Virus record (IMG/VR): IMGVR_UViG_3300046511_000086
Location: 1 to 21,647 of that record
From: a virus
Length of the DNA: 21,647 bases
Reading direction: 5' to 3' (one strand)
This document shows positions 5,465-20,739 of this stretch, piece by piece. Position 1 is the stretch's first letter. Each line of letters begins with the position of its first letter. Position numbers and translations under genes: made by a program. The notes beneath the pieces were generated by a model. That model made no database searches, had not been told where the DNA came from, and saw only the letters and a list, made by a program, of their open reading frames with translations.

Positions 5465-6217
5465 CTACGCCTCGGCCCAGATGTAGCCGAGGTTCCACAA
5501 CTGGTCTACGTCACCTGCGAGTACCTGACGCATGCACACACCCTCTCCGGGTGCGAACATGAACGACGCCCCCGGCGGAGGGCCAATGTTCCCGATGCTG
5601 CTCAGCCCCGAACCAGCCGAAGTGATGATAGGCGGGATCCCGCCCAACGTGGTTCCGGTAGTGGTGACGGTCGGATTCGTGATCCGAACCTCAGCGATTG
5701 AGTTGGGGGCAGCTGAGGAGAATTTATTGATGTTGGCGCCGGACGTCAGAGCACCCGCACTTGACGCCGAGATTCGGAACGACTCCATGGAGTTAAGGGC
5801 CGTCGTGGCTGCCCCCGCCCAGGGGATGATGAAGATCTGATAGAGGGTGATGGTTTTCCCGCTACCGACCGGATTGAACAGGGACAGGTAGTTGTACGTA
5901 GCCGCAGTCTGTCCCGGCAGGTTCGAGAACGACTGAGTGTAGAAGTTCGCACCCACGGGGACGCCCGGAACGGCGGTCACGGTGCCGCTCACGGCCTGCG
6001 TACCCGTGGGGGTGGCCGTCACCGTTCCGGTGACCGTCTGAGTGCCTGACGGGACGGTCGTCACCGTACCGGAAACGGGGAACGTGGCCGGCGAGGTGAC
6101 CGCTACGTTCTGCGTCCCGCTGGGCGTGGTGGTGAGACTTCCGCTTACCGGCAGCGGATTGGGACCGTCCACAGACACGTGCGTAGGTACGGTGACCATG
6201 GTGGCGAATACAGGCAT
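5465..6217 (-). CDS. Repeat-containing virion protein (possible head fibre or adhesin)
   Basis: A 250-residue protein, MPVFATMVTVPTHVSVDG. Residues ~24-83 hold short Thr/Val/Gly repeats (PVSGSLTTTPSGTQNV; PVSGTVTTVPSGTQTV; TGTVTATPTGTQAV; SGTVTAVPG) with a period of about 12-22 residues, suggesting a repetitive beta structure. The C-terminal ~160 residues form a non-repetitive beta-rich globular domain (SGKTITLYQIFIIPWAG; GASFMFAPGEGVCMRQVLAG) ending LWNLGYIWAEA. It lacks a signal peptide and metal motifs. Shaft-plus-globular-head architecture and a place among structural genes suggest a surface fibre, decoration or host-binding protein. The function is inferred; the repeats are seen directly. 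Confidence 0.65.
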   Translation of the reverse strand: MPVFATMVTVPTHVSVDGPNPLPVSGSLTTTPSGTQNVAVTSPATFPVSGTVTTVPSGTQTVTGTVTATPTGTQAVSGTVTAVPGVPVGANFYTQSFSNLPGQTAATYNYLSLFNPVGSGKTITLYQIFIIPWAGAATTALNSMESFRISASSAGALTSGANINKFSSAAPNSIAEVRITNPTVTTTGTTLGGIPPIITSAGSGLSSIGNIGPPPGASFMFAPGEGVCMRQVLAGDVDQLWNLGYIWAEA

Positions 6218-6221
6218 TACG

Positions 6222-6503
6222 TCACCAGCTCGTCAGTCGGGCAAACCCATTGGCGCTAGCCCAGATGCCGTCAACCTGCCCCGCGTACATCGGGGAAGTG
6301 AATTCGAACAACGCTCCGGGGGCAAGCTGAAACTTGTAGCTAGTGGTGCTGGCCGTGGCTCCGAACTTGACGTACAGAACCGCCGTGCTTTCGTTGAAGA
6401 TGGTGCGCATGCGGTCGTTGCTGGATACAGCGAACAGGGTAACGCTGGTTGCAGAGGAGGCGACGCTCGTGGTGGTAGCGGTCGTCGCCTGGGTAACGGT
6501 CAT
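6222..6503 (-). CDS. Small beta-rich virion-associated protein
   Basis: A 93-residue protein starting MTVTQATTATTTSVASSATS, with GGGAGAG upstream of the ATG. The sequence is Thr/Ser/Val-rich, then NDRMRTIFNESTAVLYVKFG and LAPGALFEFTSPMYAGQVDG. The short strands and the GALFEF..P.YAG.V.G pattern resemble small beta-sandwich modules of phage capsid or fibre components. It ends four bases before the start of the repeat-containing virion protein, so the two are probably co-translated and may act together. No enzymatic motif is seen. Confidence 0.65.
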   Translation of the reverse strand: MTVTQATTATTTSVASSATSVTLFAVSSNDRMRTIFNESTAVLYVKFGATASTTSYKFQLAPGALFEFTSPMYAGQVDGIWASANGFARLTSW

Positions 6504-6515
6504 ACGCTCTCCCTA

Positions 6516-6734
6516 CTACATGCCGGAATGGACTTCCGGATCCCAGTCGTTCGGGTAGGACCAGCCGTCGTACGGGCAGTACCAGACACCAGGCTGGTTG
6601 GGCGGACCGAGACGCAACGGTTCCCCATCATTGGGGCACGCCAAGGGCACCTGTGTGCGGTAGTAGTCGACGTACGACGCTTGCAGCGCCAGGGTCGAGT
6701 ACAAATCCCAACCGGTAACCCCTCCCGTTGCCAT
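6516..6734 (-). CDS. Small zinc-ribbon protein downstream of the capsid genes
   Basis: A 72-residue protein whose ATG overlaps the preceding TGA (TGATG). The N-terminal helix (GWDLYSTLALQASYVDYYRT) is followed by two CP.DG knuckles, LACPNDGEPL and WYCPYDGWSYP. Each carries a single Cys, so a full four-ligand site would need other residues (Asp or His) or a dimer. Proteins of this form are frequent in actinophage head regions, but the function is unknown to me. It may be a small head-completion or accessory virion protein. Confidence 0.7.
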   Translation of the reverse strand: MATGGVTGWDLYSTLALQASYVDYYRTQVPLACPNDGEPLRLGPPNQPGVWYCPYDGWSYPNDWDPEVHSGM

Positions 6735-6982
6735 CAGGAAGTCCCGGCGTCCTTGAACTTGTCGGGCATCGACGCCTCGGGCTCAACCGCCGGAGTAGTG
6801 GCCTTGGCAGGAGTGGCCTTGGCAGGAGCCGTCTTCTTGGCGTTCTTCTTGAGGGGCTCCACGAGGAAGCGGTCGAGTTCCGTCGAACCGACCTCAGGGT
6901 CCCGAGGGTGGATGACGCTGTGCACGACGCTTACGACTTCCTCCCACGCGTTGGACGCTCCGGCGATCGTTGCCTTGGGCAT
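6734..6982 (-). CDS. Small protein with a Lys/Ala/Pro-rich tail
   Basis: An 82-residue protein starting MPKATIAGASNAWEEVVSVV. The first ~45 residues look folded (VIHPRDPEVGSTELDRFLVE). The rest is low-complexity with repeats (KKTAPAKATPAKATTPA), probably disordered and basic, and the end is acidic. Such tails can bind DNA or other virion proteins. It lies between the putative decoration genes and the zinc-ribbon gene. I do not recognise a family. Confidence 0.65.
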   Translation of the reverse strand: MPKATIAGASNAWEEVVSVVHSVIHPRDPEVGSTELDRFLVEPLKKNAKKTAPAKATPAKATTPAVEPEASMPDKFKDAGTS

Positions 6983-7005
6983 TCCCTTGATCCTCTCTAC
7001 GGGTC

Positions 7006-7035
7006 GGGCCGACGTTCCACGTGGACCGTCGGCCC
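7006..7035. repeat. Near-perfect 30-base palindrome between two structural genes
   Basis: Reading inwards, nine base pairs (gggccgacg / cgtcggccc) are followed by one mismatch and then ccacgtgg at the centre. It lies between the stop at 7057 and the start at 6982. It has no T-run on the minus-strand side, so it may be an RNA-stabilising or attenuating stem rather than a classical terminator, or a protein-binding palindrome. Confidence 0.6.
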
Positions 7036-7056
7036 TTCCAGTCTGTCACGCTGCGA

Positions 7057-7521
7057 CTAGGCAGCGACCACCGTGGCGCCATCATCGAGCGGCACGTAGG
7101 TCAGGTACCACTTCATTGCACCCGTGGAAGAGGCGCCGGTCTTGAAGTCGATGGTACCGACCCTGGCCAGGTACGGAACGTTGGCCAGGCCGTTGCCCCC
7201 CGCCGTGTTGACCAGGAGGACACCGCCGAAGATGGCCGGAAGGGCGACCGTGGAGCCGACCTCCTTGCCGTTGATGTCCCCGACCGCGGTGGACCAGTTG
7301 ACATCGGTGCCCACGGTGGGGTTACCAATGATCTGGACCGTGGTGGCCTGGCCCTGGATCACCGTGGTGACCTCCCCGACGAACGACGTGATGAGCACGT
7401 CGCCACCGGTCACGGTGAACAGAGCGCTCTGAGCCGTCTGGGGGAGAGCCGCGGCATCCCGGGTGACCCGGTTCCCGTAGAGAAGGGTGCGCTGCTGCGA
7501 GCCCTTGATGAAGTCAGCCAT
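7057..7521 (-). CDS. Putative capsid decoration / virion protein B
   Basis: A 154-residue protein starting MADFIKGSQQRTLLYGNRVT. It is beta-rich with many Thr, Val and Gly residues (SALFTVTGGDVLITSFVGEV; TVQIIGNPTVGTDVNWSTAV) and has no enzymatic motif. The ATG is three bases after the preceding stop. Together with its neighbour at 7525-7974 it follows the capsid gene, the usual place for decoration proteins, and composition fits an abundant surface protein. N-terminal residues before the beta core resemble the arm of a trimeric decoration protein, but that is inference. Confidence 0.65.
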   Translation of the reverse strand: MADFIKGSQQRTLLYGNRVTRDAAALPQTAQSALFTVTGGDVLITSFVGEVTTVIQGQATTVQIIGNPTVGTDVNWSTAVGDINGKEVGSTVALPAIFGGVLLVNTAGGNGLANVPYLARVGTIDFKTGASSTGAMKWYLTYVPLDDGATVVAA

Positions 7522-8148: not shown

Positions 8149-8736
8149 TTACCCCCGGAGACGGAGGTTGGCCTCCCTGAGGTTCCGGGCAACCATTTCC
8201 ATGCGGTCCGGGTCGTCCCCGAAGGCGCCTATCCCTGTGTTGCACCCGTGGCACGCGAGCCCGCGCACGCACTCCCCACAAGACCTGTCGCTGTCACAGC
8301 ACGCGTGGTCGTGGTCCACGTGAACGCCCCGGGAAGCTTCGGGATCGAGAGCCTTCCCGCACAGGTAGCAGTTGCCGCCTTGTGCGTCCAGGATCTCTTT
8401 CCACGTGTCCCAGGTGATCCCGTGGCGGTACTTGAGATCCGAGGACGTGCTTCGCTCTCGGTCCCGCCAATAGTCCGGGTTCTCAGCCCGCTTCCTCGCG
8501 TGGTGTCGACGCGAAGCGGCACGACCCGGCTCCGGGTTGGCCGCATACTTCTCGTTGGCACGCTGCCGGTTGTACGCCTTGCGCGCTTCGGGGTCGTTCC
8601 AGTCGATCCGGGATGTACGAGCGTGTTTCCCACACGTACAGCCCGGAGCACAGGGGACCCTGGTTCCGCCCTTGCCACCGCTACGTGTGTGCTTTCCACA
8701 CGTGCAGTCTTCTTCACACTTCGCTCTGCCTGTCAT
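8149..8736 (-). CDS. Endonuclease VII-family HNH nuclease
   Basis: A 195-residue protein from the ATG at 8736, MTGRAKCEEDCTCGKHTRSG. The C-terminal half carries the endonuclease VII signature: C123-x2-C126 (NCYLCGKAL), the HVDHDH catalytic block at 139-144, then VRGLACHGCN with C162/C165 and a FGDDPDRM helix. The family cuts DNA at branched structures or as free-standing homing-type nucleases. The N-terminus has two copies of C-x3-C-x-C-G-K-H (C7-H16 and C29-H38), probably DNA-binding zinc knuckles, then a basic helical region. The frame is also open upstream, but that stretch lies inside the capsid gene. The chosen ATG follows GGGAGGT, which is buried in a hairpin. Insertion directly behind the capsid gene is typical for homing endonucleases. 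Confidence 0.87.
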   Translation of the reverse strand: MTGRAKCEEDCTCGKHTRSGGKGGTRVPCAPGCTCGKHARTSRIDWNDPEARKAYNRQRANEKYAANPEPGRAASRRHHARKRAENPDYWRDRERSTSSDLKYRHGITWDTWKEILDAQGGNCYLCGKALDPEASRGVHVDHDHACCDSDRSCGECVRGLACHGCNTGIGAFGDDPDRMEMVARNLREANLRLRG

Positions 8737-8773
8737 ACCTCCCACTCTACCAGAGAATGTAGAGTGGGAGGTA
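8736..8773 (-). promoter_or_regulatory. 15-bp hairpin that covers the endonuclease ribosome-binding site
   Basis: Perfect arms 8736-8750 and 8759-8773 flank an eight-base loop. In the minus-strand RNA the hairpin starts seven bases after the capsid stop codon. Its 3' arm contains the GGGAGGU ribosome-binding site and the A of the AUG of the endonuclease gene. It should block translation of the nuclease from the capsid transcript. It could also act as a transcript 3' end or RNA stabiliser, although no U-run follows. Confidence 0.8.
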
Positions 8774-8779
8774 CCTGGA

Positions 8780-10213
8780 TCAGCGGCTCGCGATGGCCAC
8801 AAACGGACTGAGCGTGTTTGAGCTGCCATTATGCGGCGTAAGCGGGCTCTGGAGCCACGGCCGACCGTCGACGCGGCTAACCAACCTGAACGCAACTTGG
8901 TTGTTCTGGAAGAGAAAATGCTCGGATGAGTCGACGCGGACCTGCTGACGGTCACCGATCAGGTAGTAGCTCAGGTCCACGAAGTTGATGTCACCCGTAG
9001 TACCGAGCGCCGGCGTCTTCTCAGTGAAGATGACCGGGCGACCCAGGATGGTCATGGGCGGCATGTCGGAGCCAGGCTGACTCCAGCCACCGATCCAGAC
9101 CGGGCCACCGCCGGTACCGACCGAGAGCGCCATGGTGGCCAACTCCGGGAAGGTATCGATCGAGGCGATCCAGTAGGCGTTTTTGAGCGACGTCGGCAGC
9201 ATGCGCGAGTACATCTTGACGATGTTTTCCCACACGATGGTCTTGGCGGTCTGGCCCGACTCCTTGGCGACCTGCACGGACGCCTCGGAGTTGATGAAGC
9301 CCTCGGGCTCACCCACACCGGAACCAGTCATGAACGAGACGTCCTCGAACCACGCGAGACCCTTCGGCACGCGGGAGTCGAACCAGCCGGCGAACGCCGG
9401 AGCGTCGTCCAGAAGCTCCGCAGGGACCTTGAAGAATCCCGTGAGCTTCTTCGCGTCAAGGACGACCTTGCCGAAGGTGGCCGTCGACTCAGTGAGCGAC
9501 GCGGCTTCCTCGGTCCAGTAGAACTGAACACCACCGAACAGCGAACTGACGTGGCTGGTGTCGTCCACGGTCGGGATCGGGACACGCAGCGTGCTCATGG
9601 GGATGACGGTCGCCTTGGAGCGGACGATCGTATCTTCCAGTGCAAGCTGATAGATCTCAGAGCGCATCAGCTCCGGGATCAGGAAGCCGCCGGCGCCAGG
9701 CTCTTCGGAGCTGAAGGAGTTCTGGAACTCCTGGATCCGACCCAGCTTGGCCACCATCTCCGCGCGCCCCGGACGGGTACTCGGAGCGCGAAGCTCAAAG
9801 ATCGCCTTGCAGTACTCCCCGATGTTGCTGAGGCGCTCCTCCTTAGGAAGCTCACGCTCAAGTGCGGCACCCATGGAGGTCTTGTTGTAGACCGTGCCAC
9901 GGCCCTTGCTGACCGCCGCAGTGCCCTCGGGGGTGAGGTCTCCGGCGTTGTTCAGGGATCCACCAAGCTTGGCGTTCCCCTTGCTGCTGCCGCCGTCACG
10001 AACCATGTCGAACAGAACCGACTGGACCTGGTTGCGCATGTCCGCAACGGTGTCCGGGTTGTTCTTGACGTAGTGACCGGCGTAGCTGTCGAGGAATTCC
10101 TTGGTCGTGCCGTTAGCCACGGCGGACGCCGAGAAGAAGTCCTTCAGCTTCGAATGGTCCCCTAGCGCGTCCAGCAAACCTTCAGAATCGGTGGGAACAG
10201 TCATCTTGGCCAT
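8780..10213 (-). CDS. Major capsid protein, HK97 fold, with N-terminal scaffold region
   Basis: A 477-residue protein starting MAKMTVPTDSEGLLDALGDH, one base after the protease stop. Residues ~1-165 are charged and helical, consistent with a delta/scaffold region removed at maturation. The shell part begins near SSEEPGAGGFLIPELMRSEI (GGFLIPE, 175-181), the usual start of the mature HK97-type capsid protein. Further hallmarks are FKVPAELLDDAPAF, a GSGVGEPEGFIN loop and LGRPVIFTEKTP. It forms the icosahedral shell. The preceding gene is the ClpP-like protease that would make the cut. The call is firm from family features and order; the exact cut site is inferred. Confidence 0.93.
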   Translation of the reverse strand: MAKMTVPTDSEGLLDALGDHSKLKDFFSASAVANGTTKEFLDSYAGHYVKNNPDTVADMRNQVQSVLFDMVRDGGSSKGNAKLGGSLNNAGDLTPEGTAAVSKGRGTVYNKTSMGAALERELPKEERLSNIGEYCKAIFELRAPSTRPGRAEMVAKLGRIQEFQNSFSSEEPGAGGFLIPELMRSEIYQLALEDTIVRSKATVIPMSTLRVPIPTVDDTSHVSSLFGGVQFYWTEEAASLTESTATFGKVVLDAKKLTGFFKVPAELLDDAPAFAGWFDSRVPKGLAWFEDVSFMTGSGVGEPEGFINSEASVQVAKESGQTAKTIVWENIVKMYSRMLPTSLKNAYWIASIDTFPELATMALSVGTGGGPVWIGGWSQPGSDMPPMTILGRPVIFTEKTPALGTTGDINFVDLSYYLIGDRQQVRVDSSEHFLFQNNQVAFRLVSRVDGRPWLQSPLTPHNGSSNTLSPFVAIASR

Positions 10214-11302
10214 TTAGTTGCCTCCCTTCAGGGCATCACGCAGGGCGGTTGCCATCAGCGTGTAATCAATCGAGTCATCCGGCGAGTAGTCCGGATTGAT
10301 CTTCTTCATCAGTCCCTCAAGCATGGACCGTGCTGCGTCCGCGTTCTTGAGATCCTGCGTCTGCGAAAGCCTTGCAAGGGCGTTCCGCACACCCGCCGCA
10401 TTGGGCGGGGAGTCGGGAGTGTATCGGTAGGGCAGTGCCCAATGGGCCTGGGTGGAGGGGTCGCCAGAGGTCTTCTCGCCAGCCGTGATGGCCCGGTAGA
10501 AAGCCTCCGGGTCATCGGCAGTAGTGCCGCCGTGCCAAGCCTTGGCAGCGTCCCAGGTGGACGTGTCGACGTCCGCGTTGCGGACCTGCTTCTCACCCTT
10601 GGTCTTCTTCTTCTTCGACCCTGGTACGGACGGAGCACTGTCGACATCGGTTTCGCCGGCTGCGTCCACGTTGAACACGGACAGGTCCCACGTGTTCTTG
10701 GGATCGTCCTGGCCGCTGATCCGGTCCGCCAGGCCATCGGCCACGGCTTCGGAATCCTTGTACCACGTGGTGGACTTCATCTTTGCGCGCCAGTAGTCCG
10801 CGGACTTGCCCGTACGCTCCGCATAGATGGACGCGATGTTGTCCGAGGCGGCGTCCAGCTGGTTCGCCAGATCACGCATATCGGCAGCGTTACCGATACC
10901 TGCCGCGAAGCCATCATGGATCATCATGGTGGAGAAAGGTGCCATCTCCAGCATGCCTGGGGACGCGGCCTGCGCGATGAACGAGGCTGCCGACGCAGCA
11001 AGACCGTCAATGGTGATGGCTACGGATCCGCGCCGGGATTTCAGTTGGTTGTAGATGGCAATAGCGTCGAAGACGTCGCCGCCGGGGGACGAAATATGAA
11101 CGTCAAGATCCCCGTTGATCCCGGAAAGTTCAGCCAGGAATTCACCAGCCGAGATCCCATAGAACCCGATTTCGTCGTAAATGCTGACTAGGGTCGGAAC
11201 GTCCGACTTGCCCTTGTTCTCGATTTTCCACCACTTGGTGGGCGCCCCGTGAAGGTTCTGAAGCCGCCGCGTGGAGCGCAACGGACGTGCACCGCGCGTC
11301 AT
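10214..11302 (-). CDS. ClpP-like prohead maturation protease
   Basis: A 362-residue protein whose ATG overlaps the portal TGA (ATGA). Residues ~35-200 show the ClpP/S49-like protease fold: VHISSPGGDVFDAIAIYNQL (SSPGG at 71-75), the nucleophile in GLAASAASFIA (Ser104) and the histidine in MMIHDGF (His129), followed by EAVADGLADRI. A Lys-rich linker (PGSKKKKTKGEKQ) leads to a C-terminal domain of ~130 residues (AHWALPYRYTPDSPPNAAGV; VRNALARLSQTQDLKNADA). This domain could be a scaffold or targeting region. The enzyme cleaves the capsid precursor and probably itself inside the prohead. It lies between portal and capsid genes, as expected. Confidence 0.9.
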   Translation of the reverse strand: MTRGARPLRSTRRLQNLHGAPTKWWKIENKGKSDVPTLVSIYDEIGFYGISAGEFLAELSGINGDLDVHISSPGGDVFDAIAIYNQLKSRRGSVAITIDGLAASAASFIAQAASPGMLEMAPFSTMMIHDGFAAGIGNAADMRDLANQLDAASDNIASIYAERTGKSADYWRAKMKSTTWYKDSEAVADGLADRISGQDDPKNTWDLSVFNVDAAGETDVDSAPSVPGSKKKKTKGEKQVRNADVDTSTWDAAKAWHGGTTADDPEAFYRAITAGEKTSGDPSTQAHWALPYRYTPDSPPNAAGVRNALARLSQTQDLKNADAARSMLEGLMKKINPDYSPDDSIDYTLMATALRDALKGGN

Positions 11303-13248
11303 GAGCGGCCTCCGAGTTCAATTGGCATGTATCCGTCGCTGAGAACACGACGGAGAAGCGACGACAGGTCCACACTATCCGTAACCGGGGCTTTCTCCTT
11401 AACCCACGCATTGCACACGTCGGTCTCGTAGATCACCCCTTTGACCAGAGTGCAGCCGTGAGGGGCCTGAAACATGGCACAGGTCCCACAGTTGCGACCC
11501 GGAACGTCTGCCTCGCGGTAGTCCACGCTCTTCTTACTGCGCTTCCGGACGTTGGTGAGTGCGTTCCCGACCGGGTACTCCTGGTCAGAGTGCATGTCCT
11601 CCCATGCACCGTGCTCGGAGTCAACGGTTCCGATGAAGGCGCGCAACGGCACGCCCAACTGGGCGGCAGCCAAGTAGCGGTGATGCCCGTCCACGAGTTG
11701 GAGCTTCGACCCCTTCGGGGTCTTCACCAGGATCACGGGCTTGAGCTTCTTGCCCGACTCCAGCCGCTCAACGAATTCGTACACCTGGTCCGGGCCGTCG
11801 TCCTCCATCTCCCCCGGGGTCCAGTCGATGTGATCCAGGGGGACAGACACCGGTCCCTTCCACTCAGCGTGGTGCATCCACCCCGTGGCACTCGGAGGGA
11901 AGTTCTCAGCAGCCTGTTCGAACACGGTCACGGATGCGTCAGCGTTGCGCAGCGTGATGGATTCCCTGTCCACCGGGACTGCTACGCCAGGCAGGGCCGG
12001 AGTCTCCGGAGGGGTGGGCTTAGCCGGCGTAGCGAAGTCCATGCCGGGCAGACCAACGACTTCCAGCACGTCATCCGGATCAAACCCGGCGTCGATCAAG
12101 GTTTTTGCCGCGTTCGACTTGGCCACCAACTCAGTTGATGCGTTTTCTGCGTTGACCGGGCTGGGGTCATCGAAATCGAATTCGCTGCCCTTCCCAGTCG
12201 TGCCGAAGAGGGGAAGCAACTTGGAGTTGAACGTGTCCCGTCGTCGGTTGAGTCGGGGCAGGACCTGCCATGAGACGAAGACCTCTTCACCCGTCTCAGC
12301 GTTAGCACGGTTGACGTCATCGGAAGAGCCCATCATGGACTTGTGGATGCGCCATGCCTCGCGAAGCTCGTCCCGGTTGGCCAGACGGAGATTCCCGTAC
12401 TCCATGTCCTTGTTCGTGGTGCTTGAGGGCTGCCACGTCATGCCGTCCTCAAGAACACCGACGTGGCCGGCGCGAGCGACGCCCCTGTGCGATTCACGCC
12501 AGCGTTCGATCAGTTCATCGAACTCGCGCTCAGACAAGTGGTTGGGAACCGTGATCACGCCGCCCGGGTCAGCGCCGTTGAGGAACAGGTTGCGCTGGTA
12601 CTCGGTCGCGTACCGCTGCTGCTGAATGTTGGGCATGATCGACTGGACCGGGCCCGCACCCCGGTAGGGGTCCATCGGGTCCGGACGCTTTTCGAGGATG
12701 ACCTCGCTACGCTTGAGCGGTACTTGCTCCCCAGTGGGCCCCGTGTAGATCCATCCGACGAGGTATTCGTTGGGATCCGGAACAGGCTCCATACGGTCGG
12801 GGCGCACGTACCACATGGATGTGGGGAAGCCCGCTTCCATATCCAGTACCCAAAACGTCTCACCCGTAAGTTCCTGGTGCTGCTGAGCGCCTTCAAAGAA
12901 TTCGAACCGGGAGTGGAAGGGGTTCGGGTTGTTGATCAGCTTGATAGCCGCGTGATCGATTATTTCCACACGCTGATCACTGCCAGTGTCACCCGTGCTG
13001 TACCGGCGGCGACCGTCGACCGGAGGCTTCTTGTAGAGATGCCACTCAGGGGTGGCTGTCGCTTCAGCGAGAAGCCCCACGATGCCGTACAGGGTCCCGG
13101 ACATGCCGTACTGGCGGAGAAACGTCTCTTTGTCCTGCTTACCCGCGCCCAGGCTGTAGCTCAGGCCGCGGGAGCGTGACGCAGGCTCCCCGATCGGGAT
13201 GGGCGGCTTGTTGCCGGCGTTGAGCAGTCGCCGGAGGCCTGACTTCAC
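11299..13248 (-). CDS. Portal protein fused to a ParB-like and a four-cysteine domain
   Basis: A 649-residue protein from GTG (GTGA overlap with the upstream stop). Residues ~1-410 are an HK97-type portal: MSGTLYGIVGLLAEATATPE, the helix-rich NIQQQRYATEYQRNLFLNGA, and the SMMGSSDDVNRANAETGEEV region. The portal forms the DNA channel and TerL docking ring. A Pro-rich linker (ATPAKPTPPETPALPG) follows. Residues ~450-545 resemble a ParB-type nuclease/NTP-binding fold, with LKPVILVKTPKGSKLQLVDG and GHHRYLAAAQLGVP (VDGHHR at 519-524). Residues ~578-616 hold C587, C590, C599 and C612 (GRNCGTCAMFQAPHGCTLV ... TDVCNAW), like the high-potential iron-sulfur type modules seen on phage virion proteins. 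A typical portal is ~400-500 residues. The extra domains are clear; their roles are inferred. Confidence 0.9.
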   Translation of the reverse strand: MKSGLRRLLNAGNKPPIPIGEPASRSRGLSYSLGAGKQDKETFLRQYGMSGTLYGIVGLLAEATATPEWHLYKKPPVDGRRRYSTGDTGSDQRVEIIDHAAIKLINNPNPFHSRFEFFEGAQQHQELTGETFWVLDMEAGFPTSMWYVRPDRMEPVPDPNEYLVGWIYTGPTGEQVPLKRSEVILEKRPDPMDPYRGAGPVQSIMPNIQQQRYATEYQRNLFLNGADPGGVITVPNHLSEREFDELIERWRESHRGVARAGHVGVLEDGMTWQPSSTTNKDMEYGNLRLANRDELREAWRIHKSMMGSSDDVNRANAETGEEVFVSWQVLPRLNRRRDTFNSKLLPLFGTTGKGSEFDFDDPSPVNAENASTELVAKSNAAKTLIDAGFDPDDVLEVVGLPGMDFATPAKPTPPETPALPGVAVPVDRESITLRNADASVTVFEQAAENFPPSATGWMHHAEWKGPVSVPLDHIDWTPGEMEDDGPDQVYEFVERLESGKKLKPVILVKTPKGSKLQLVDGHHRYLAAAQLGVPLRAFIGTVDSEHGAWEDMHSDQEYPVGNALTNVRKRSKKSVDYREADVPGRNCGTCAMFQAPHGCTLVKGVIYETDVCNAWVKEKAPVTDSVDLSSLLRRVLSDGYMPIELGGRS

Positions 13249-13709: not shown

Positions 13710-15038
13710 CTAGTACTTAAACGATCGGTACTGCGGTCGCCTGCCCAAGTCTACGTGAGCTATCGCGTACCGCATCGCATCCATCCCGTGATCATTGTCC
13801 TTGACCGGGGCTTCTTTCGGAGCCTGGTTCCCTGTGCGGTCCCAGACGTAGCCGACGATCTCATCCAGGGTGCTGGTAGGCCGTCGCGCATCATCCAGCG
13901 CGGGATCCCGCTTCACCAGTGCATCCCGGCACAGGTACAGCCCCGGTCGCCCGTCACCGCGAGGGCGCATGCGGGCTTGGACAGCTTGGATGCCGAGCGA
14001 AACGTCTTTCTTGGCCGCCACCGTGCTACGCCCTAGATGCCGTTCCAGGGTGGCACGTCCTTCCGCATCGTGATCACAGATGATCGCTTCAGGGGCGGAT
14101 TCCCGGGTACGGCCCTGAAACGCCTTGATGATCGCCTGGGCGTGATCTTCCACGAGCGTCTTCGTCTGGTAGATCTCTTTGTATAGGTACATGCGATCGT
14201 CGGGGTCGATGGCCCAGGCCTGCCACACGAACGGGTTCGTGTATCCGAAGTCGATAGCCCAGAACCTGCGCCACGTCTGCGGGGGCTCCCCGATCCGGGG
14301 GTGGATGTTCAGGGATGGGTCGAATTCGTCATAGACGAGACCATCTGCGGCAGCCCATACTCCCCCGCGGAGACGGAGCTTGCGGACTCCTGTCAGGGCG
14401 TCCAGTTTCTCCATGTAGGACGCGCCGTACTCGGTGAGCTCTCCGTCCTGATAGATCCGGGGGTTGTCGGTGTGCTGCGAGTTGAGCATGTGCGTACGCC
14501 CGCGGTCCGACCTGAGTTTGAGCCAGTGGTGCGGAACGTCCGGGTTACAGTCAGCCATGAGCTGCTGAAACGAGATCTTTCCGTTACGTAGTCGCGACGT
14601 AATTGCTTCCCAGTCACTCTCGGTAAGCTCAGTGGCTTCCTGCACGTAGGCGACGTCATATTCCGAGGACATGATCCGTGTTGCTTTGTCGAGACCTCCG
14701 ACCGAAATCGTGCTCCCGTTGGCGTACCGATACTGCGCGGCTTCCTGAGATGAACCTCCGTACCAGATGACCTCGCCGGACGCCAAAGCCTCCTTGGCCA
14801 CGTGCTCTTTGAACGTCACCAGGGCCGTTGATGTAAGCGATACCGCGGTCTTCCGAAGGATGACGCCCCGGGCATTGGGGGTCATGCTCATCATGAAGTG
14901 CAGTTTCTCCAGGCAGGCCCTGGACTTGCCCGTACCGGCTGGGCCCGAGAGAAGGATCTCCGGTCCGCGATACTTGAACAGTTCCAGCGCCGTGCCGTAC
15001 GGGTGGTATACGTGCCTCGACGAGACCTCAGTGGTCAT
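13710..15038 (-). CDS. terL: Terminase large subunit
   Basis: A 442-residue protein, MTTEVSSRHVYHPYGTALEL. The ATPase domain has Walker A GPAGTGKS (32-39), Walker B YDVAYVQEA (D128, E134) and a coupling motif near MADCNP (161-166). The nuclease domain has D263 (FWAIDFGYTNP), D322/D324 (IICDHDAEG) and D420 (DNDHGMDAMRYA). It powers DNA translocation into the prohead and cuts concatemers. Length is normal for the family. The ATG overlaps the end of a 34-residue gene by 11 bases. All catalytic residues appear intact. Confidence 0.96.
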   Translation of the reverse strand: MTTEVSSRHVYHPYGTALELFKYRGPEILLSGPAGTGKSRACLEKLHFMMSMTPNARGVILRKTAVSLTSTALVTFKEHVAKEALASGEVIWYGGSSQEAAQYRYANGSTISVGGLDKATRIMSSEYDVAYVQEATELTESDWEAITSRLRNGKISFQQLMADCNPDVPHHWLKLRSDRGRTHMLNSQHTDNPRIYQDGELTEYGASYMEKLDALTGVRKLRLRGGVWAAADGLVYDEFDPSLNIHPRIGEPPQTWRRFWAIDFGYTNPFVWQAWAIDPDDRMYLYKEIYQTKTLVEDHAQAIIKAFQGRTRESAPEAIICDHDAEGRATLERHLGRSTVAAKKDVSLGIQAVQARMRPRGDGRPGLYLCRDALVKRDPALDDARRPTSTLDEIVGYVWDRTGNQAPKEAPVKDNDHGMDAMRYAIAHVDLGRRPQYRSFKY

Positions 15039-18527: not shown

Positions 18528-19007
18528 CTACCCTTGTCCTCGCTTCTTTTCCCTGTACCTGCGCACTGCCTCGCGGTGTCTCTCCGGGTCAGCCAAGCGG
18601 TGCTCCCGCCCCCTGTCGGTAGAGCAGGTCTTGCAAACCCTCCTCCCCCGGTACATCCGGACGTTTCCTTCGTCGTAGGGATGGCCCTGCGGACAGTGCG
18701 TCTTAGCGGCCCAGTGCTGACCCCCGTTTCCGCGACGGACGTTCTCTGTGTGGTGAACCACCTGGAGGTGCTCCGGGTTTACGCAATTCCTGACTCGGCA
18801 GAGGTGGTCCACCTCCATCGGGTACTCGACGGTGCCTTGCGTCAACTCCCATATGGCTCTGTGAGCCAGAGGGGCCCACGAACGGCTCATCCGTATGCGC
18901 CCGTACCCGTCCGGGTTGAGAGTGGCTGTCCACAGCCAGCACCCCGACTCGTGGACAGTCACCTTCTTCCAGAATCGTTCCGGAAGCCTCTCGTCACCGC
19001 ATTCAAT
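18528..19007 (-). CDS. HNH endonuclease overlapping the DNA polymerase 3' end
   Basis: An HNH_3-type nuclease, numbered from the ATT at 19007 (159 residues). It has FWKKVTVHESGCWLWTATL, a DGYGRI loop and APLAHRAIWE. The catalytic block is VDHLCRVRNCVNPEHLQVV (D67-H68, C70/C75, N77, H80), followed by a HCPQGHPYD and CKTC zinc knuckle (C105, H109, C125, C128). The helical end (ERHREAVRRYREKKRGQ) should bind DNA. The start is unclear. No ATG or GTG lies between the polymerase stop and FWKKV; the nearest in-frame ATGs are 150-166 bases inside the polymerase gene, and a GTG at 18962 would cut the domain start. It is probably a free-standing homing-type endonuclease next to the polymerase gene. Confidence 0.78.
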   Translation of the reverse strand: MECGDERLPERFWKKVTVHESGCWLWTATLNPDGYGRIRMSRSWAPLAHRAIWELTQGTVEYPMEVDHLCRVRNCVNPEHLQVVHHTENVRRGNGGQHWAAKTHCPQGHPYDEGNVRMYRGRRVCKTCSTDRGREHRLADPERHREAVRRYREKKRGQG

Positions 19008-20739
19008 CCTTGCTGTAACAAGCAGCCCAGTTGATTCCGGGCTTACTGGCCCCGCAGGTGATCCGGACTCCCCTCCACTCGAAGGTGAGGGCTTGCTGAA
19101 TGTGCTCGCTGATTTCGTCAACACGACTTGAGGGTACACTACAGACCACTTCATCGTGGACCACCGCACGGAGCATGGGGTGGATCGCGGGGTCCAGGCG
19201 GAGCAGGCCCTCGCACATCAGGTCCCTGGCCCCTCCCTGGCCCATCAGGGCCGGCGCCTGCGTGTGAGACCTGTTCGGGTCGCATCGCATCGTGCGGCCG
19301 AAGCCGTTGTCCAGGAGCGCTCCGGAGGACCCGTACGCACGCCACTCCTCGCGCTTGCTGCACAGCACGGGGAACCGGTGGGTCATCTGCGTATCGAACT
19401 GCTGCGCAACCTGAGGGTCCACACCGGACCTGATCAGGCCGTTGACGCTCATCCCGTAGTTCCAACCGTGGCCGCAGCGCTTGGACTTGTCCCGCCAGTC
19501 GCCATCGCTGCGACCGAAGACCAGCATGGCAATCTCGCTGTGCGCGTCCCGGCCCGGCTCGAAGAGCTTCATGTACTCCGTGTCCTGGGACAAGGCAGCG
19601 ATGGCGCGCATGTCGACCTGGTCGAGGTCGAAGGAGATCAGGACGTGACCGGGCTCGGGGAGGAAGACCGCGCGCTGGGCCACCTTCTTCTCACCGCGCT
19701 TGCCGATGTTGGTGAGGCTTGGCCGGGTCATGGCCCAGCGACCGGAAGCCTGATCGGCACCGATACCGCCGTGCACCCTGTCCTCGATCAGGTGGTTCTG
19801 GATCTCCTGATACTTCGCGGTGACGCCGGCGACCTCCGTCATCAGGGCGAGGATTGATGCCGCCTCGGTACTGATTCCGGGGCGGTTCCCCAGTTCCGTC
19901 AAAGCGGCACCGGAGACCGAAACCTGCCCGTTCGGGTGTGCCTCTGTCGGCTTGGTCATGACCGGGGCAATGCCCTGGCTGGCGAGACCCTCCGCGAACC
20001 ACTCCTTACCCGCCTTGGAGCCCAGCGGGGCCTTGCCCCCGGTCCGGGGGAGGCCGTAGCCGTCGTGCAGGGACTCCAAGGCGGACAGGCGGTGCTCCTC
20101 CTCGATACGCACACGGTCTGCGAGGAGTGGAACGTCAATCCGCCAACCGTTGAAGGTCATGCGGTTCTGGATCGAGACCACACGCATCTCACGGCGCGCG
20201 TACGGGGTCAGCGCCGGCTTCAGTGCCTCGTACACCGCCCTGGTCGCGGACAGGTCGCCTCGGAGGTACGCCCGGTAGTCGGGATCATCCACGGGGATCC
20301 TGTCGTATCCGCCGTGACGGGCAGCGAGGCCAGCCAGGTCATCGGTCTTCCCAGGGACGCCCACGCGTGCCGCTACGGCGTCCAGGGAGTAGTAGCCGGG
20401 TGTAGACCAGGGCTTCTGTCCGCGGGCTCCCGGAGGATCCGCCAGACGGGCCAGCACCATGGTGTCGACGGCTCCTTCCGACAGCTTCGCGTAGTCCCCG
20501 CCCTCATGACGTGCCAGGGCGGGGATGTCGAACGCGAGGATGTTGTGGCCGATCTTGACGTCTGCCTCCGCGAGAGTCTGAACATACTCCCGCTTCATGC
20601 CGGGTCCGGCCAGGATGGATATGCCTCCGTGCGGCTTCTGGATACCCAGGAGCCGGACGAACGGGCCCTCGTGGTTGCCCTTGTACAGCTGGTCTGCGGA
20701 CGCGCCTTCGAGGTCGAAGACGAGTTCCACGGGCGCCAT
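19003..20739 (-). CDS. Family A DNA polymerase with 3'-5' exonuclease
   Basis: A 578-residue protein, MAPVELVFDLEGASADQLYK. Exo I is D9/E11 (VFDLEG), Exo II GHNILAFD (N66, D71) and Exo III YLRGD (Y158, D162). Polymerase motif A is SFDLDQVDMRAIAAL (D371), motif B R416-DKSK-RCGHGWNYG with K420 and Y428, motif C VVHDEVV (H528, D529, E530). All catalytic carboxylates are present. At the O-helix position that is usually Phe or Tyr (Taq F667) there is H424. No 5' nuclease domain is present, so the length is right for an exo-pol phage replicase. The ATG is one base after the preceding stop, and the end overlaps the HNH gene. Confidence 0.95.
   Translation of the reverse strand: MAPVELVFDLEGASADQLYKGNHEGPFVRLLGIQKPHGGISILAGPGMKREYVQTLAEADVKIGHNILAFDIPALARHEGGDYAKLSEGAVDTMVLARLADPPGARGQKPWSTPGYYSLDAVAARVGVPGKTDDLAGLAARHGGYDRIPVDDPDYRAYLRGDLSATRAVYEALKPALTPYARREMRVVSIQNRMTFNGWRIDVPLLADRVRIEEEHRLSALESLHDGYGLPRTGGKAPLGSKAGKEWFAEGLASQGIAPVMTKPTEAHPNGQVSVSGAALTELGNRPGISTEAASILALMTEVAGVTAKYQEIQNHLIEDRVHGGIGADQASGRWAMTRPSLTNIGKRGEKKVAQRAVFLPEPGHVLISFDLDQVDMRAIAALSQDTEYMKLFEPGRDAHSEIAMLVFGRSDGDWRDKSKRCGHGWNYGMSVNGLIRSGVDPQVAQQFDTQMTHRFPVLCSKREEWRAYGSSGALLDNGFGRTMRCDPNRSHTQAPALMGQGGARDLMCEGLLRLDPAIHPMLRAVVHDEVVCSVPSSRVDEISEHIQQALTFEWRGVRITCGASKPGINWAACYSKD

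Follow-up and report, generated by a model that had tools for sequence, protein, structure and literature searches.

Fusions of phage portal and MuF proteins to other domains have been described and read as effectors that are packaged and injected, with PBECR, 2H and InPase domains in the accessible part of PMC5512222 and Nudix domains in that of PMC9503650. The product of one gene in a 21,647-nucleotide stretch of viral DNA (IMG/VR record IMGVR_UViG_3300046511_000086, positions 1 to 21,647; the whole stretch is called the window here) resembles these fusions, given that a head-protein N-terminus is combined with interchangeable domains and that Nudix and MuF domains occur in the same open reading frames (ORFs) of its relatives. 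This gene, at 11299..13248 on the minus strand, has a GTG start and encodes a portal protein of 649 residues with C-terminal domains of two kinds, one ParB-like and one similar to high-potential iron-sulfur proteins (HiPIPs). Such a union of disparate domains on a head protein is one of the criteria by which polyvalent effectors are recognized.

The window protein differs from the published fusions in that its additional domains form an internal cassette, placed before a conserved tail. In its accessible part, PMC5512222 names no HiPIP or iron-sulfur domain, and its ParB domains are DdrB-like, with no known link to the family with the DGHHR signature treated below. The portal-MuF fusions of Microbacterium phages (PMC7302621) share the attachment of MuF to the portal with the first viral matches of the window, contigs L001 and L002, whereas the accessible part of that paper describes no ParB-like or HiPIP portal domain. 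No account of a phage portal that bears a HiPIP was found in the literature searched, which consisted of titles and the beginnings of abstracts of open-access papers, subscription papers being mostly outside it.

A portal protein with a two-domain cassette

The product of 11299-13248 is a bona fide portal protein with a two-domain cassette inserted in its C-terminal tail, and both its reading frame and the identities of its domains were established by computation. A preliminary description of this gene had claimed a portal half, a Pro-rich linker, a ParB-like module and a four-cysteine domain of the high-potential iron-sulfur type, all of which were recovered. The portal core, at residues 54-362 (12163..13089, minus strand), matches Phage_portal PF04860 at E 2e-50, with 172.3 bits against a curated cut-off of 39.1, and the same ORF matches phrog_2662 at 1.4e-55. 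The Pro-rich linker is present at residues ~403-432 (11953..12042, minus strand), and relatives have similar linkers.

The HiPIP-like domain occupies residues 571-617 (11398..11538, minus strand), with Y577 and with C587, C590, C599 and C612 at exactly the positions that had been claimed, these being the only four cysteines of the protein. When residues 425-649 were shuffled 200,000 times, the spacing of Y577 and the four cysteines never arose. Two curated models fell below their cut-offs on this part, the iron oxidase model NF041615 at 5.5e-6 and PF01355 (HIPIP) at 13.8 bits, against a gathering cut-off of 22, while comparison with the PDB returned PioC at 1e-4 and the HiPIP 3h31 at 8e-3. A profile built from 28 phage HiPIP-like sequences gave three PDB matches in total up to E 0.01, namely PioC (6e-10) and two HiPIPs, in which the cysteines and the HiPIP tyrosine line up. 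The tyrosine and the four cysteines are invariant in all 37 aligned HiPIP-like sequences, and the CxxC-C-C plus Tyr pattern fits 45 of 47 distinct sequences, L130 and L131 being the exceptions.

The predicted fold points in the same direction. Known HiPIPs have little secondary structure and a fold that rests on the cluster, and the model of the phage domain has short strands only. Modelled alone by AlphaFold, the HiPIP part reached a core predicted local distance difference test (pLDDT) value of ~94 in the best of five models, two of which were below 50, and it also stayed below 50 in a joint model of the ParB and HiPIP parts. Among 19 Foldseek rows against the PDB, the 16 best were HiPIPs or a HiPIP-bearing complex, the best having an E of 8.9e-3 (none lower) and a probability of 1.00. 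Superpositions gave Z 4.4-6.7 for the HiPIP rows, with a root mean square deviation (rmsd) of 1.1 Å over 48 residues and Z 6.5 for 1isu. The four-cysteine part is a HiPIP-type domain by both profile and fold, and it should, as predicted from its sequence, hold a [4Fe-4S] cluster. A zinc ribbon in its place is disfavoured by the invariant tyrosine and the fold matches. The PioC/Iro-type HiPIPs have in common with the phage domain the Tyr, the CxxC...C...C arrangement, a Trp and the fold; known HiPIPs are soluble periplasmic electron carriers, whereas here the domain is one part of a phage portal.

The ParB-like part, at residues ~438-560 (11569..11937, minus strand), includes VDGHHRYLAAAQ at residues 519-530, with the DGHHR signature at residues 520-524 (11677..11691, minus strand). 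Of 40 distinct ParB segments of near-full length, 37 retain GHH, and Asp precedes it in 36 of these 37. This part matches phrog_1033 at 4e-6 and, below the cut-off of the model, TIGR00180 at 2e-4; ParBc_2 gave 12.4 bits against a gathering cut-off of 23.6, and PF02195 matched nowhere in the record. The fold is predicted with a pLDDT of ~92-98 across most of the domain, and all 26 Foldseek matches at E <= 0.001 are ParB, Noc, KorB, PadC, Srx, SerK or SbnI structures, with superpositions of up to Z 10.3 (rmsd 2.5 over 95).

In profile comparisons with the PDB, the only matches up to E 0.01 were SerK and SbnI entries, from 1.5e-5 (free serine kinase) to 8e-4, and both the VDGHHR signature and the ParB/Srx fold are shared with them, although the match is limited to the ParB-like N-terminal part of SerK. 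The glutamate E30 of SerK, which PDB titles name as catalytic Glu30, aligns to a column that is not Glu, in a loop that is poorly aligned. The ParB, Noc and KorB CTPases share the fold of their N-domain (Z ~9-10) and differ in their GERR box, in the helix-turn-helix (HTH), which Pfam did not find in the window portal protein, and in a partition context, none of which was seen here. The phosphate box of ParB is GERR or GxRR, and DGHHR stands in place of GERR in the window domain; the catalytic cysteine of sulfiredoxin sits in a GCHR motif and is absent here, as all four cysteines belong to the HiPIP motif. Given the missing sulfiredoxin cysteine, the replaced GERR box and the HTH that was not found, the domain is named a SerK-like member of the ParB/Srx superfamily, neither a classical ParB nor a sulfiredoxin.

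The protein ends in the tail LLRRVLSDGYMPIELGGRS, residues 631-649 (11302..11358, minus strand), which is conserved in the alignment of relatives. Its last codons include a Shine-Dalgarno-like GGAGG that precedes the ATG of the next gene, a protease, and the conservation of the tail may be partly due to this use of the codons. The protease is a ClpP-like head maturation protease (10214..11302, minus strand; PF00574 8e-27, phrog_2976 1.5e-66), and its ATG overlaps the portal stop codon. With the major capsid protein (8780..10213, minus strand; PF05065 4.7e-50) and the large terminase subunit (13710..15038, minus strand; Pfam and PHROGs matches), the gene order is terminase, portal, ClpP-like protease and capsid. 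Elsewhere in the window, an Endonuclease VII-type gene at 8149-8955 on the minus strand (PF02945 5e-17) has an open frame that overlaps the capsid gene at its 3' end, and an ORF at 18528-19169 on the minus strand, HNH endonuclease-like by eye, overlaps the end of a family A DNA polymerase ORF at 19003-20739 (PF00476 1.3e-29).

Recurrence and exchange of the domains on phage portals

Recurrence on several kinds of portal, together with the modular gain and loss of the domains, was likewise established by computation. The same ParB-HiPIP end occurs in L001 and L002, with a MuF-like domain (~240 residues in the segments cut for hidden Markov models, HMMs) between the portal and ParB. This domain is supported by phrog_595 at 3e-7 and 1e-4, with Pfam Mu_F below its cut-off, and by tblastn matches to the MuF-like minor capsid proteins of Arthrobacter phages, down to 1e-8. 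Scans seeded with HiPIPs gave 56 distinct phage contigs, some of them near-identical, in 34 of which the HiPIP lies inside the portal ORF (33 by our own portal HMMs, and L126 by phrog_12 and phrog_2662). The ParB-like domain is also present in 32 of these 34 ORFs, in either order. The 34 portals include HK97-like ones close to that of the window, divergent phrog_2662 portals that carry NUDIX and sometimes MuF, and the Mu-type portals of L104 and L107 (PF06074 2e-24 for L107; phrog_113 for both).

The portal label of most large ORFs rests on our own HMMs, for which reversed-sequence decoys gave 0 matches in 22,176 ORFs with each of six models; curated libraries were run on L094, L097, L099, L103, L104, L106, L107, L123, L126, L150 and L168. 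One of these HMMs, portB, matched a downstream ORF in many loci, which might have been taken for a second portal gene, but these matches were treated as linker artefacts; three ORFs in this downstream position, of which portB had matched two, correspond to phrog_21715 (unknown function) and partly to head maturation protease or major head proteins.

The domains are also found split. A separate HiPIP ORF follows a portal-MuF-ParB ORF in five contigs (L164, L167-L170), with an identical HiPIP sequence in L168-L170; the spacing of the pair is ~1.5 kb in L164, and the frames overlap in L172. The HiPIP follows a truncated MuF-ParB ORF in L124, is carried on a MuF-containing ORF with the portal ORF upstream in L102, lies between terminase and portal in L122, and is cut by the contig end in L144. 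Three contigs from the scans, L129-L131, were judged not credible.

Some further arrangements were observed. NUDIX occurs in the same portal ORF as HiPIP and ParB, in either order, in L099, L103, L106, L108-L113, L115-L118, L136 and others, and L106 carries MuF as well. An 832-residue ORF (L125/L177:5597-8092) combines a HiPIP with regions that match DarB-like antirestriction and minor head proteins, of the polyvalent type. Stand-alone HiPIP ORFs of 64-101 residues, with no portal seen nearby, are present in L171, L174 and L175, the first close to a gene for a DNA polymerase clamp loader. The portal-MuF-ParB ORF of L007 (3644-7456) contains an intein (PF14890 1.5e-8) at the NTC..C motif of MuF, which that of L008 lacks, and is overlapped by an ORF on the opposite strand (5783-7390) that is zinc-ribbon and nuclease-like by eye. 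The portal-ParB ORF of L013 (5677-6411) has a further C-terminal piece that is weakly MuF-like (9e-4), which, if real, reverses the order of the modules.

Beyond these contigs, Streptomyces phage Dagobah, the closest annotated phage, has a portal without the cassette. In tblastn searches of annotated phages, a single weak match, KorB-like, was obtained with the C-terminal part of the window protein and none with pieces of L099 and L103, and two scans of genome contigs for prophage relatives returned 22 and 14 pattern matches, none of which was confirmed. Given these searches, the ParB-HiPIP module is known here from uncultivated contigs only.

How the cassette evolves can be followed in the portal clade of the window. 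A portal-seeded scan gave 568 confirmed relatives, the best 80 of which, together with the window, L002, L004 and L008, formed a panel of 84 rows; the C-terminus is complete in 77 of them. Among these 77, 52 have no module, 14 have MuF, five ParB, two MuF-ParB-HiPIP, two ParB-HiPIP (the window and L010), one MuF-ParB and one, L011, HiPIP alone. The cassettes are placed between the linker and the conserved tail, whose LRRVLSDGY-like motif closes 24 of the 77 sequences (10 of which have no module) and was met in 1 of 15,400 shuffled tails. On a quick tree with many weak branches, MuF changed at least eight times, ParB seven times and HiPIP four times. The three modules are thus gained and lost as cassettes in this clade; the window portal may simply have lost its MuF, a history that the many module changes on the tree do not decide.

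The identities tell of exchange as well, given that the window and L010 are 87% identical in the portal but 55% in the ParB part, whereas the window and L002 are 52% identical in the portal and 59% in the ParB part; these contrasts are read as cassette exchange, as in conflict effectors. L010, L001 and L002, in both their ParB and their HiPIP parts, and L011, in its HiPIP, showed lower nonsynonymous than synonymous divergence (pN < pS), with pN/pS of 0.33-0.82 and synonymous divergence (dS) saturated in places.

Possible roles of the cassette in the virion

The reading favoured here, with a probability of roughly 0.45, is that the cassette is virion-internal cargo, borne by the portal, which combines nucleotide binding with redox chemistry and is deployed around DNA ejection. 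Portals are dodecamers, and since the C-termini of HK97-type portals face the capsid lumen, about 12 copies of the cassette would be carried inside the head beside the DNA. By analogy with the PBECR, 2H, InPase and Nudix fusions, these may act at or after DNA ejection as virion-borne effectors. The SerK-like domain, of a type that would bind nucleotides or phosphoesters, would bind a nucleotide, and the HiPIP would give or take an electron or serve as a reporter of the redox state. The likely targets would be nucleotides of the host, signals derived from nucleotides, or redox cofactors, and release from the portal might, as a guess, be performed by the neighbouring ClpP-like protease. Cargo is preferred because the cassette evolves like effectors, has Nudix and MuF partners and keeps the residues of a ligand site.

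Several points weigh against this. As a conserved tail follows it, the cassette does not have the form of a free toxin at the C-terminus; the portal itself, moreover, is not known to be injected, and we know of no HiPIP that acts as a toxin or in anti-defence. A cleavage motif shared by the linker and the protease tail (RESITLRNAD and VRNADVD being alike by eye) was not supported by a shuffle test, given that only three of 25 phages reached p <= 0.05, the stretches concerned being Pro-rich or of low complexity. Ten of the 56 HiPIP contigs show no portal link (L114, L119, L121, L125, L127, L128, L171, L173, L174 and L175), and the portal share is biased upwards, as most seeds of these scans were HiPIPs from portals.

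The retention of the tail makes the main rival a cassette that remains fixed to the portal ring and would regulate packaging or ejection in response to redox state and nucleotides. In this view the HiPIP would sense the passage from the oxidising outside to the reducing cytoplasm, and the ParB-like domain would bind either a nucleotide or, at the mouth of the channel, the DNA. This doubtful but serious possibility accords with the covalent fusion, with the portal's own tail kept after the cassette, and with the HiPIP-bearing ORFs of both HK97-like and Mu-like portals. It fits less well with the 52 of 77 clade portals that lack all three modules, from which the cassette is not needed for packaging, with the single losses of HiPIP and ParB (L030, L011), and with the HiPIP that can be a separate gene. 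A more speculative proposal makes the portal itself a redox-active, nucleotide-binding device, in which about 12 HiPIP [4Fe-4S] clusters and 12 SerK-like domains would ring the DNA channel, switching ejection or acting on the host upon reaching the reducing cytoplasm; if true, an electron-transfer protein would be built into the motor vertex of a virus.

A structural role is unlikely, in which the ParB-like domain would serve as a clamp for DNA or scaffold and the cluster would do no more than stabilise a small fold, with neither redox chemistry nor catalysis. The dependence of HiPIP folds on their cluster, the short strands of the model and the position expected near the packaged DNA agree with such a role, but the conserved GHH and its preceding Asp look like a ligand or active site, and NUDIX partners are frequent.

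Less probable again is the activity suggested in the preliminary description, a nuclease or CTPase of the ParB type that would process packaged or host DNA. While both of its domain identities, the recurrence of the fusion in related phages and the existence of split versions are borne out, the cutting of DNA or the hydrolysis of CTP (cytidine triphosphate) is unsupported, as are a sensing of packaged DNA and an orientation of the domain towards the terminase. The superfamily fold would suit such a nuclease or CTPase activity, and PMC5512222, in its accessible part, proposes that the DdrB-like ParB domains found in polyvalent virion proteins are DNases regulated by nucleoside triphosphates. 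On the other side, DGHHR replaces the GERR box and is nearer to SerK and SbnI, which are also the nearest profiles, no HTH was found, and the early nuclease claim for RK2 ParB is called ill-founded in the accessible part of PMC3482391.

Finally, an artefact, either a chimeric assembly or an untranslated extension, might be suspected in a single uncultivated contig such as the window, but is very nearly negligible, already contradicted by the recurrence of this fusion, in frame, in L001, L002, L010 and other contigs of different metagenomic origin, by pN < pS and by the conserved tail.

Portals are among the most constrained of phage proteins. That a HiPIP is repeatedly paired with a ParB/SerK-like domain, on portals of both the HK97-like and the Mu-like kind, suggests selection for a function exerted in the head, as well as redox chemistry within the virion. 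The cassette also offers residues that can be altered by point mutation, the four cysteines and DGHHR, through which both the delivery of domains by the portal and a virion-carried redox protein may be tested.

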